A DNA stretch of 64,000 nucleotides from Stanieria sp. NIES-3757 (GTDB lineage: Bacteria; Cyanobacteriota; Cyanobacteriia; Cyanobacteriales; Xenococcaceae). The stretch covers positions 2,108,001 to 2,172,000 of the forward strand of contig AP017375.1 of assembly GCA_002355455.1 (NCBI GenBank), in the 5' to 3' direction. Shown here piece after piece: positions 5,803 through 9,319 of the stretch (positions within the stretch are counted from its first letter, which is position 1; every line of letters begins with the position of its first letter). The translations under genes and the position numbers were made by a program. The notes under the pieces are model-generated. The model worked only from the letters and a program-made list of their open reading frames with translations. It was not told the origin of the DNA and made no database searches.

Positions 5803-7197
5803 ATGACTGTACTGATAGCTGGCGATCGCTCTGGAGTGGGAAAAACAACAATTACTTTGGCTATACTTGCCTATTTATCCGAACAAGGCAAAAAAATTCA
5901 AGCTTTTAAAGTCGGACCTGACTATATAGATCCCATGTTTCATCAAGCAGTTACAGATAAACCTTCGCGCAATCTCGATCCGATTTTAACTTCAGAAACC
6001 TATGTTCAATCTTGTTTTACTCGTCACTGCCAGGATGCAGATTATGTCGTAGTTGAAGGAGTGATGGGTTTATTTGATGGTATTACCTTTAGAGAAGTTC
6101 CCAGGAAAATCTCCACCGAGGGGAGATTGGTTCTTAATGATTATGGTAGTACTGCACATATCGCCAGATTGTTAGACTTACCTATACTATTAGTGTTAGA
6201 TTGTTCGCGTTTATCAACTTCGATCGCAGCAATAGTTCATGGTTATCGCACTCTCGATCCGAAACTTAAAATAGCGGGAGTAATTTTAAATCGAGTTGCA
6301 AGCGATCGCCATTTAGAATTATTAGAACAAGCTTTAACGGCAATTGCCATGCCAATTTTAGGAGTTTTGAGGAGACAAGACCAAATTACTATTCCTGACC
6401 GACATTTAGGTTTAATTCCCACTGAAGAACTTCAACAATTCAAGATAATTTGTCAGAAATTAGTCGACCTTGCTAAAAACAGCTTTAAATGGAAATACTT
6501 ATTACCGTTACTCTCCCCCTCTCCCTGTCTCCCCGTCTCCTCCTCTCCCCCTTCCCTCTATCCTGAAATCAGAATTGCCGTAGCACGCGATCGCGCTTTT
6601 AACTTCTATTACCAAGACAATTTCGATATTTTGACTCAATTTGGTGCAGAGTTAGTTTTTTGGAGTCCTCTAGAAGATGAACAATTACCAAAAGATATTC
6701 AAGGTTTTTATTTTGGTGGTGGTTTTCCTGAAATTTTTGCCGAACAATTAGCAGCTAATCAATTCATTCTTACTCAAGTCTATCAAGCAATTAAATCTGG
6801 TCTGCCTACCTATGCCGAATGTGGTGGTTTGATGTATTTGTGTCAGCAATTGATTGATTTTGCAGGAAAATCTTGGCAAATGGTCGGGATAATTCCTTCT
6901 AATACACTGATGAGCGCTCGCCTTACTCTAGGATATCGTCAAGCCACAGCCAAACAAAATAGTTTTTTGATCGCTAAAAACCAAACTATTCGAGGACATG
7001 AATTTCATCGTTCTCAAATTACTTCCTCTTCTCTTGAACCCCTTTGGCAAATTCAAGGCTATCATTCTCAACCTCAAATAATAATGGAAGGCTGGAACAT
7101 CTTTCAACTTCACGCTTCCTATCTTCATCTCCATTTCGGTGAAAATCAATTTCTGGCACAAAATTTTATTCAGTGTTGCTCAAATCAAAAGAATTAG
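5803..7197 (+). CDS. cbiA: Cobyrinate a,c-diamide synthase
   Basis: Amidates the a and c side chains of cobyrinate with glutamine and ATP in cobalamin synthesis. The N-terminal half is a dethiobiotin-synthetase-like ATPase with P-loop AGDRSGVGKTT and the substrate motif GPDYIDPMFH. The C-terminal half is a class I glutamine amidotransferase with nucleophile Cys at about residue 340 in PTYAECGGLMYL. At 464 residues the length is normal for the family. Oddly, residues of about 236-252 joining the two domains are encoded by a pyrimidine-rich tract (6511-6559) that gives a Ser/Pro/Leu-rich linker and resembles intergenic low-complexity repeats of cyanobacteria. It is divergent from the chemotaxis operon. 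Confidence 0.95.
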   Translation: MTVLIAGDRSGVGKTTITLAILAYLSEQGKKIQAFKVGPDYIDPMFHQAVTDKPSRNLDPILTSETYVQSCFTRHCQDADYVVVEGVMGLFDGITFREVPRKISTEGRLVLNDYGSTAHIARLLDLPILLVLDCSRLSTSIAAIVHGYRTLDPKLKIAGVILNRVASDRHLELLEQALTAIAMPILGVLRRQDQITIPDRHLGLIPTEELQQFKIICQKLVDLAKNSFKWKYLLPLLSPSPCLPVSSSPPSLYPEIRIAVARDRAFNFYYQDNFDILTQFGAELVFWSPLEDEQLPKDIQGFYFGGGFPEIFAEQLAANQFILTQVYQAIKSGLPTYAECGGLMYLCQQLIDFAGKSWQMVGIIPSNTLMSARLTLGYRQATAKQNSFLIAKNQTIRGHEFHRSQITSSSLEPLWQIQGYHSQPQIIMEGWNIFQLHASYLHLHFGENQFLAQNFIQCCSNQKN

Positions 7198-7247
7198 CTA
7201 GGATAAACATCAGTAAGTCATTCATCAACAAATACCGCTTAGGGACA

Positions 7248-7433
7248 AAAGGAGGTGATGCCCATGATCGATAGTAGTAGTAAGATAATGGGTCTCCTAG
7301 TTGAAGATAGCCGGCTGTGTGCCGGGGCTGTTCTCTAGCAGTCGCTTAAATCCTCTACGGAGGTTAATTTATAGCAATGCTGCTGGAGTTCCTTCCGGCA
7401 GTCTGGTTTCAACTAGAAGATCCTAGCTAGACC
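7248..7433 (+). ncRNA. Putative structured RNA or leader element upstream of the porin gene
   Basis: The region between cbiA and the porin is richer in GC than other spacers and highly foldable on the plus strand. The stems seen are:
- CCGGC 7311-7315 with GCCGG 7321-7325
- CCTC 7352-7355 with GAGG 7360-7363
- eight pairs between 7380-7387 and 7394-7401
- a long-range closing helix: CTAGTTGAA 7297-7305 with TTCAACTAG 7408-7416, plus GGTCT 7291-7295 with AGACC 7429-7433
A competing hairpin pairs AGGAG 7250-7254 and GCCCAT 7260-7265 with ATGGGT 7288-7293 and CTCCT 7294-7298. That hairpin would hide the ribosome site and excludes the long helix. No known riboswitch, 6S, tmRNA, SRP or RNase P signature was recognised. 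The ends are uncertain, and 7434-7530 may belong to it. Confidence 0.55.
7264..7338 (+). CDS. 24-residue small ORF with perfect Shine-Dalgarno (possible leader peptide)
   Basis: ATG at 7264 and TAG at 7336-7338. The start is preceded by AAAGGAGGTGAT (7248-7259), a 12-base match to the 16S rRNA 3' end complement, with ideal spacing of about 8 bases. A second in-frame ATG lies at 7258. The peptide begins MIDSSSKIMGLLVED and ends CAGAVL. Because the ORF runs through the RNA stems, translation and folding would affect each other, as expected for a leader peptide. It could instead be a genuine small protein, or the Shine-Dalgarno match could serve another purpose. No homologue is recalled. Confidence 0.45.
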   Translation: MIDSSSKIMGLLVEDSRLCAGAVL

Positions 7434-7717
7434 GCTCTCACAATTAGGCACTAAAGGTAATTCAGTTTCTCGCTGGTTACTTTAAAGAGTCTTCGGTGGG
7501 GGCGGATAGTTTTTTAGGGGTTATTTAGTAAAATAGCTTTTCATAGTTAACCTTTTTCAAAAAAGCTGTGATTTGTTCCAGGCTAAAACCAGAAAAATTA
7601 TTGGCATACAACTACGCTACATATATTTTTTGTATCTTAAAATATAGATAAATAGAACGTTATGTGGTAAAGAAAACAACGCTCTATTTAAATATCGACA
7701 CGAGGTGTGAGAAATAA

Positions 7718-9319
7718 ATGATAAAACTAGGCGTGTGGTCTTGGTTGGTTAATCCAGCCTATCTTGCTGTTGCTATTTTAGTCCCATCTACTGCCAATGC
7801 AACAGAAATTCCTTCAGATCAAATTACTAAAGAAAATCAAGTATTAAATCAGTTAGAAATCTATTCTCAAGAAAGTCAAAGAGACTCTCTTAAACAAGTT
7901 ACCAACGTCAATCAGTTGCGAGATGTTTCTCCTACAGATTGGGCTTATGAAGCACTACGTAGCTTAGTAGATCGATATGGTTGTATTGCTGGATATCCCA
8001 ATCAAACCTTTAGAGGCAATCAACCCTTATCTCGTTACGAATTTGCTGCTGGTTTAAATAGCTGTTTAAATCAAATCGAACGTTTAATTGCTTCATCTGA
8101 ATCTGTGATGAGAGAAGATCTCGAAACTCTCTCCAGATTAACCGAAGAATTCCAAAGTGAACTAGCTACTTTAGGCGGAAGAGTAGACGATTTAGAAAGC
8201 CGTACTGCTTTCTTAGAAGATCATCAATTTTCTACTACTACTAAATTATCAGGAGAAGTAATTTTTGCTGTCACTGACTCCTTTGGGGACAACGATGACA
8301 ATCAAACAGTTTTAGGCGATCGCTTCCGTTTAACTTTTGATACTAGCTTTACTGGAAAAGACAAATTAGTCACTCGTTTAGCTGGAGGTAATTTAGATAA
8401 TTTATTTGGTCCTACTAGTACTCAAACCTTTAACCTCAACAACGACGAAGATAATTCTAATAACGTCAGTGTTGATTGGTTAGCCTATTACTTTCCAATT
8501 GAATTAGGCGAAAAAACTCAATTAGATGTTTATACTGCTGCTTTTGGTGGTATTCACAGCGATTACGTTCCTACCCTCAACCCTTACTTTGAAGACTACG
8601 ATGGTGGTAATGGTGCCTTATCTACCTTTGCTTCCGAAAGTCCAATTTATCGCATCGGTGCAGGTGCAGGTGCTGGCGTAAGTTTCAAATTTGGTTTGTT
8701 AGATAATATTGTTGGCCCTAGTACCTTAACTGTAGGCTACTTAGCTGGAGAAGCAGCAGATCCTTCAGAAGGGGCGGGTTTATTTAACGGAGATTTTGGT
8801 GCTTTAGCCCAACTTAATATTGCTCTAACTGATTCTATTAACCTAGGTGCTACTTACGTCAGAGGTTATAACGATGGTACGCCCACCTTTGGCAATATTG
8901 TCGGTACTACCTTGGCTAATTTAGATGGAGTTCAAAAAACTACCAATACCTTTGGCGCAGAAGCTACTTGGAAAGTTTCCGATAGAATTAACTTGAGTAG
9001 TTACTTTGCTTATCAAGATGTCAACGTTAAGGAAGCTGATATCGATGATGGGGAAGTCTGGACTTGGGGTGCTGGTATTGCTCTACCTGATTTTGGTAAA
9101 GAAGGCAACGTTTTGGGAATCTTTGCTGGTACACCACCTTATTTAGGTGATGCTGCAAGTAATAAAACTCCAATCCATGTAGAAGCTTTCTATAAATATC
9201 AAGTCAACGATAATATCTCCATTACTCCTGGTGTGATTTGGCTACAAAATGCCGACCAAGGAATTAACGATGAAGATGATAGATTTATTGGTACCTTGAG
9301 AACTACTTTTACTTTCTAA
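7718..9319 (+). CDS. SLH-domain outer membrane porin (OprB/iron-uptake porin family)
   Basis: A 533-residue outer membrane protein of the cyanobacterial slr1841 type. It has a signal peptide ending near STANA, then one SLH domain at about residues 65-125 (SPTDWAYEALRSLVDRYGC, RYEFAAGLNSCL) that should bind periplasmic polysaccharide. A short coiled coil (EEFQSELATLGGRVDDLE) follows. The rest is a beta-barrel of alternating aromatic and polar strands ending in RTTFTF, with the terminal Phe expected of Bam substrates. It allows diffusion of ions or small solutes; the substrate cannot be told from sequence. Upstream lies the structured RNA candidate, and a strong terminator follows. Confidence 0.92.
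   Translation: MIKLGVWSWLVNPAYLAVAILVPSTANATEIPSDQITKENQVLNQLEIYSQESQRDSLKQVTNVNQLRDVSPTDWAYEALRSLVDRYGCIAGYPNQTFRGNQPLSRYEFAAGLNSCLNQIERLIASSESVMREDLETLSRLTEEFQSELATLGGRVDDLESRTAFLEDHQFSTTTKLSGEVIFAVTDSFGDNDDNQTVLGDRFRLTFDTSFTGKDKLVTRLAGGNLDNLFGPTSTQTFNLNNDEDNSNNVSVDWLAYYFPIELGEKTQLDVYTAAFGGIHSDYVPTLNPYFEDYDGGNGALSTFASESPIYRIGAGAGAGVSFKFGLLDNIVGPSTLTVGYLAGEAADPSEGAGLFNGDFGALAQLNIALTDSINLGATYVRGYNDGTPTFGNIVGTTLANLDGVQKTTNTFGAEATWKVSDRINLSSYFAYQDVNVKEADIDDGEVWTWGAGIALPDFGKEGNVLGIFAGTPPYLGDAASNKTPIHVEAFYKYQVNDNISITPGVIWLQNADQGINDEDDRFIGTLRTTFTF

Follow-up and report, generated by a model that had tools for sequence, protein, structure and literature searches.

In the 5.46-Mb genome of Stanieria sp. 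NIES-3757 the spacer between cbiA and an SLH-OprB porin gene carries a unit that resembles an RNA gene. It was analysed within a 64,000-nt stretch of the forward strand (AP017375.1, positions 2,108,001 to 2,172,000), which is called the window below and whose numbering is used throughout. The features concerned are listed here.

5803..7197, + strand: cbiA, the upstream neighbour (Pfam CbiA and GATase_3)
7176..7204, + strand: candidate promoter TTGCTC – 17 nt – TAGGAT, with TTGCTC lying within the 3′ end of cbiA (suggested by a family alignment)
7234..7245, + strand: conserved leader ACCGCTTAGGGA, usually CCGTTTAGGGA (homologue alignments)
7248..7259, + strand: perfect 12-base Shine–Dalgarno (SD) or anti-16S match (genome comparison)
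7251..7297, + strand: start-site hairpin (fold A), 7251-7254 and 7260-7265 with 7288-7297 (conservation and predicted fold)
7264..7338, + strand: 24-codon ORF MIDSSSKIMGLLVEDSRLCAGAVL, stop TAG (translation and homologue comparison)
7290..7423, + strand: rod (fold B) (predicted fold; covariation in three inner helices)
7427..7515, + strand: extended terminator CUA-GA-CCGCUCUCAC ... GUGGGGGCGG-A-UAG-U6 (motif fit across 226 loci)
7718..9319, + strand: SLH-OprB porin, the downstream neighbour (Pfam OprB and SLH)

The rod has a base of 7290-7295 paired with 7418-7423, then a helix of 7297-7305 with 7408-7416 and further helices running inward to about 7330/7393. The initial annotation had delimited an element at 7248-7433; this lies inside a larger unit, with the terminator extending to about 7515 and the possible promoter at 7176-7204. 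The 12-base match that it had noticed was verified, as AAAGGAGGTGAT at 7248-7259 is complementary to the 16S rRNA 3′ end of the same genome (GGATCACCTCCTTT). This match occurs three times in the genome, in the spacer and antisense to the two 16S 3′ ends, and is therefore the sole perfect 12-base anti-16S match apart from the 16S complements. The ORF that follows runs, as annotated, from ATG at 7264 to TAG at 7336-7338 (24 aa). The leader motif (C)CGTTTAGGGA directly 5′ of the SD is widely conserved, lies outside both folds and may be a binding site. Separately, a pyrimidine-rich, repeat-like tract (ctctccccctctccctgtctcc...) was seen at 6511-6559, in frame within the cbiA ORF. Comparison with the families of Rfam 15 gave no match above the gathering threshold anywhere in the 64-kb window and nothing plausible below it, in agreement with the earlier statement that no known RNA family is present. 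The spacer element is best read as the local copy of an RNA of about 300 nt that is transcribed independently and found cyanobacteria-wide. This RNA is real, old and functional as RNA, and it behaves as a dual-function or leader-type RNA.

Rod, start hairpin and predicted exclusive pairing

The strand that carries these features folds better than all 200 of its dinucleotide shuffles (z −2.95), and the opposite strand folds less well relative to its own (z −2.06, 7 of 200 as good). Covariation was scored in an alignment (A1) of 78 homologues, obtained by removing 12 near-duplicates from the 90 excised rods; three loci with peptides ending CAEAVL (L008, L010 and L014) are absent from the later counts and L083 was excluded as it has no recognisable rod end. 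Across the rod and the start hairpin 97.8% of the cells in A1 are paired. Thirteen pairs show changes on both sides, amounting to 126 such cells, as against 7.0 pairs and 35.1 cells in shuffled controls, none of which (0/500) reached either observed value, and no more than 6 pairs and 14 cells when the partners were slid by 1–3 columns. All of these double changes sit in three inner rod helices. Within the 78 sequences of A1 there is none in the start hairpin and none in the rod base GGGUC/GACCC, so that within this alignment the evidence for the two competing helices is their conservation, with 98.7% of cells paired for the four GCCC/GGGU pairs of the start hairpin and 94.5% for the rod base. 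Compensatory change in homologues, which the initial annotation had named as the check on its folds, was thus found for the three inner helices of the rod and not for the two helices that compete.

The fold of the rod also differs in part from the one first drawn. A long-range helix is possible between 7290-7305 and 7408-7423; 7429-7433, which had been assigned to it, are not used, the best partner of the rod base being 7418-7423 and 7427-7431 forming part of the extended terminator. Where three local hairpins had been proposed inside this helix, the prediction is a single interrupted rod with a variable tip. The 6S RNA (RF00013) is likewise a long interrupted rod conserved in cyanobacteria, but identity with it was rejected as RF00013 gives no match here and a separate 6S gene lies at C1:3743950-3744133.

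The fold that buries the SD, by pairing 7251-7254 and 7260-7265 with 7288-7297, proved possible as described. It shares bases 7290-7297 with the long-range helix, which is possible too, and GGGUC (7290-7294) has one partner in the start hairpin and another in the rod base but can take up only one of them at a time. The Gloeobacter-like copies, which lie outside A1, bear on this exclusivity. For three of them (L246, L247 and L248) folding of the 5′ part is predicted to join GUGGU to ACCGC and CCGA to UYGG; when the full RNA is folded, the same CCGCA is predicted to pair with UGCGG in the rod. The fourth such copy, L249, has the same complementarity and a different predicted fold. Exclusivity is thus predicted to be retained in three of the four with non-canonical bases. 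Along the growing RNA of the window the predicted openness of the SD is 0.87 at 7275, falls to 0.16 at 7300 and stands at 0.60 at 7433, 0.25 at 7470, 0.75 at 7500 and 0.57 at 7516, the full transcript. Over 90 homologues the predicted mean is 0.63 before GGGUC and 0.37 after it, then 0.34 for a rod lacking its last 24 nt and 0.52 for the complete one (0.50 in the shuffled control); closing by more than 0.2 is predicted in 51 of the 90 and reopening in 36. The direction of these changes fits gating and their predicted size is moderate. Of the proposal of mutually exclusive folds around an SD and a small ORF, conservation and the Gloeobacter-like re-pairing speak for it, and the lack of double changes in A1 and the moderate predicted gating count against it; on the folding predictions it is probable that a choice between the two folds gates the start site of the ORF.

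The small open reading frame and its distribution

The ORF was compared in 200 loci (174 distinct ORF sequences, with some genomes counted twice because two collections were used). Of these loci 109 came from a pattern that needed ATG and GGGTC at any spacing of 15 to 30 bases and were filtered for a peptide of 20–27 aa whose C-terminus fits a loose motif; ORF start and length are therefore partly selected in them. The ORF has 23 codons in 170 loci and 24 in 30, the length changes being in frame, and ends in TAA (106), TAG (92) or TGA (2). The distance from ATG to GGGTC is 23, 26 or 32 nt, all equal modulo 3, in 199 of the 200, the one exception lacking GGGTC where it is expected. Among 89 pairs of close sequences, synonymous changes made up a share of 0.427 against 0.276 expected, giving omega of about 0.51 in frame 0 as compared with 1.3 and 2.2 in the other two frames. 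The constraint is located in the part of the ORF that lies in the rod (omega 0.46), where the 3′ half of the ORF doubles as the 5′ strand of the covarying structure, and the first codons give 0.95. Third positions in the rod part may vary for reasons of pairing, and the in-frame constraint could in part reflect this. In one locus (L091) the start codon is shifted and the peptide is still MPDSSKHKGHLVGVSRLWAGAVL. Translation of the small ORF is considered probable.

The same data bear on a rival reading, in which this is a structural RNA that engages the ribosome: the SD, the start codon and translation or mere docking would be what matters, and the peptide would be a by-product of the bases needed for the rod. 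The C-terminus of the peptide is missing or altered in families f34, f60 and f61, in group g90 of f58 and in two f55 genomes, which counts against a role for the peptide, and in the first four of these lineages the SD, start and short ORF persist. Non-coding stretches (GAGTTCCTTCCGGCAGTC and the terminator flanks) are as conserved as the ORF, and the first codons are free of constraint at the protein level. On the other side, stop and frame are retained throughout the 200 loci, the rod part shows the low omega given above and RLCAGA persists in the Gloeobacter-like copies. We regard this reading as unlikely, though to be taken seriously.

A DNA search matched 57 of 60 genomes, that of the window included, and across the class 271 of 388 Cyanobacteriia genomes (127 of 160 genera). 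A covariance model (R1) built from the 78 homologues found the RNA in 300 of the 388 genomes and 143 of the 160 genera, almost always as a single copy in a genome among the matches listed. In a sample of the phylum R1 matched 75 of 194 genomes, all of them the genome itself or from the same order or class; it gave no match in the six genomes of other classes listed from this sample, and another 99 unmatched genomes fall outside that listing. In the large class and phylum searches stricter filtering was applied, at the cost of weak matches; weak members were judged by eye. A pattern scan of named genomes yielded at least 115 stretches, the absence of a species from it being uninformative; L133, L139, L147, L173 and L196 were excluded for lack of a peptide and L128 as a Desulfobacteraceae record.

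Two divergent lineages extend the range. The Gloeobacter-like family f46 is matched at E 3e-13 to 3e-11 and keeps NSRLCAGA or close variants, and the marine-Synechococcus-like family f34 at about 1e-4, with a short ORF ending GLLIAENAG or GLLIAENVG. Homology of the f34 copies is supported by position, as psbD recurs upstream (one of 12 copies) and the porin downstream (four of 12, within the 3 kb examined). A 21-mer in the rod, GGGTCTGCTGATCGCGGAGAA, occurs without mismatch in 12 of the 19 f34 genomes searched (L286-L297, six genera), and the seven genomes without it are all of 1.6–1.9 Mb; this degree of conservation is well above that in other lineages. In L270-L273 and L083 (f14) the peptide end and the usual terminator are changed, and the SD, the start and a rod-like match remain.

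These properties recall ncl0160, an sRNA first seen in Synechocystis 6803 and described by Brenes-Alvarez et al. 2016 (PMC4734099) with 83 homologues among 89 genomes, a ribosome binding site (RBS), a translatable ORF of 23–25 aa, and a predicted structure; the survey omitted marine Prochlorococcus and Synechococcus. Both are widespread, structured cyanobacterial sRNAs with an RBS and a short ORF (here 23–24 aa, and shorter or altered in the divergent lineages) that starts mostly with ATG and in a few cases with GTG, both are found across most non-marine cyanobacteria (here the 300 genomes and 143 genera matched by R1), and in both the stops run TAA > TAG >> TGA (47, 34 and 2 of 83 in that paper). 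The RNA is very probably ncl0160; we infer this from the stated features rather than from sequence, because the main text of the paper gives no ncl0160 sequence. It follows that neither the RNA nor its ORF is new. The main-text passages on ncl0160 mention neither gating of the start nor counts of covariation, and name neither the psbD/porin order nor members from Gloeobacter-like or picocyanobacterial genomes. In the open main texts searched, no account was found of the covariation, of a gated start, of the extended terminator, of the Gloeobacter-like and picocyanobacterial members or of the psbD–porin order; ncl0160 was named in a single paper, no function for the RNA was found and the peptide strings did not occur.

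Transcript ends and neighbouring genes

The terminator ends in six T at 7510-7515 and in most copies has the form CUA-GA-CCGC...GCGG-A-UAG-U(n). Scored strictly, 182 of the 226 loci have such a terminator of their own, as do 14 of the 1526 windows used as control. A looser count of 191 of the 226 includes a few spurious stems, just as a few of the 35 misses have the motif with a weaker T run; in it the flanks are CTA/TAG in 167, CCA/TGG in 7 and CGA/TCG in 4, and since all three combinations occur the flanks change together. The copies of f14, f25, part of f8 and Pseudanabaena end in other hairpins, which is compatible with an independent transcript. The asymmetric GA/A internal loop, conserved between covarying flanks, is unusual for a plain terminator and may bind something.

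At the 5′ end the evidence is slighter. In L003, L004, L005 and L007 promoter sites match the consensus at 9 of 12 positions, 41–48 nt before the SD; the site in the window matches at 7 of 12 and is weak by consensus, and the RNA's own promoter was not reported by a consensus scan of the window. Sites at 9/12 or better precede the RNA in 65 of 200 homologues, as against 15% in shuffles, which is weak support. The porin has a promoter-like site at 7601-7629, but such sites number 3 against 1.9 in shuffles, i.e. there is no excess. An independent small RNA, one of the options offered by the initial annotation, is well supported by the terminator in most loci, the variable downstream genes and the probable match to ncl0160.

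The neighbouring genes were identified by Pfam on seven proteins, and five duplicate f34 loci were removed from the counts. Upstream lies psbD in 47 and cbiA in 32 of the 177 loci with more than 1 kb of upstream sequence. Downstream, a porin gene on the same strand is present in 131 of 239 loci, with none on the opposite strand, and in 83 of the 123 loci that have more than 3 kb of downstream sequence, so that the linkage is real; a pterin dehydratase gene is downstream in 87 of the 239. The order psbD – RNA – pterin-4a-carbinolamine dehydratase – SLH-OprB porin recurs in distant families (e.g. L264, L276 and L278) and looks ancestral.

Such linkage would be expected if the RNA were a leader acting in cis on the porin, with or without the pterin dehydratase, by read-through or processing, and in four loci of f34 the start of the porin frame is about 250–270 nt after GGGTC. 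Overall the distance from RNA to porin varies from about 250 to 1500 nt. In other copies the next gene is cysK, a dnaJ-like gene or one on the opposite strand, the first two often within the window's own family. To examine the specific proposal of an attenuation switch for the porin, an antiterminator was sought in the 195 homologues whose terminator could be located and none was found, the terminator stem having a predicted probability of 0.994 when the RNA is intact and 0.997 when the 5′ strand of the rod is covered. As the terminator is thus predicted either way and other genes are often downstream, a transcription attenuator of the porin is not supported; the terminator is predicted to take no part in the switch. 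A weaker cis link of the RNA to the porin is possible. Common ancestry can account for the gene order, and its persistence is suggestive of a link but no proof of one. On balance we consider a cis-acting leader improbable.

More improbable still is a plain mRNA for a 23–24-aa protein with structure serving stability and translation control only, for which the perfect SD, the in-frame length changes, the retained stop and an omega of about 0.5 would speak, and against which stand a 3′ strand and terminator conserved as strongly as the ORF and a peptide that is shortened or altered in several lineages and has no match in Pfam or NCBIfam.

A proposed gated, dual-function-type RNA

Our main reading, to which we give a probability of about 0.5, is that of an independently transcribed RNA of dual-function type, very probably ncl0160, whose ORF is gated by competing folds. 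During synthesis GGGUC and the ORF bases that follow would first shut the SD and the start codon in the hairpin. The 3′ strand of the rod, once made, would capture the same bases and so free the SD. Translation of the ORF by a ribosome would then open the rod from the 5′ side and end within it, and the RNA would switch back and forth between a folded state and one that carries a ribosome and leaves the 3′ strand free. The terminator, outside the switch, would end the RNA, and the output, whether peptide, freed RNA strand or both, would act in trans. The ORF, the rod, the competing pairings and the terminator are supported by comparing homologues; the order of folding, the translation and the trans-acting output we infer. 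The recurrent porin neighbour is not explained by this gated-ORF model.

The rnTrpL RNA of Sinorhizobium meliloti reportedly has a short ORF and competing RNA folds and is released as a small RNA; it is said to be an attenuator controlling its operon. A short ORF with competing folds is common to both RNAs, but no antiterminator was found for the cyanobacterial RNA in the 195 homologues, and the resemblance is no more than that. The leader peptide of rnTrpL, peTrpL, is reported to act in trans (PMC7298713). Dual-function RNAs of the SgrS, SR1 and RNAIII type, as described in PMC5126843 and PMC1242208, likewise join structure to a very short ORF; here, in contrast, the ORF and the structured strand overlap, and the likeness is one of description.

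In the divergent lineages examined, the constant features are the SD, the short ORF and the rod rather than the peptide. It is conceivable, and we put it forward tentatively as a rather doubtful extension, that the RNA is a translation gauge, in which ribosomes are recruited by the anti-16S match through the gated start and the rod is opened by translation of a short, partly interchangeable ORF. If this is true, the free 3′ strand of the gauge, or a protein that binds the rod, would report ribosome availability to other genes.

With the predicted gated start, the rod, the terminator and the psbD–porin context, an entry in a 2016 list of sRNAs becomes a model testable in standard laboratory strains, for a conserved RNA that has no Rfam entry despite its presence across the cyanobacteria. 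Its range from Gloeobacter-like to marine-Synechococcus-like lineages, together with the placing of ORF and rod on the same bases and the sole perfect 12-base SD of the genome, points to a role that is probably basic in oxygenic phototrophs.
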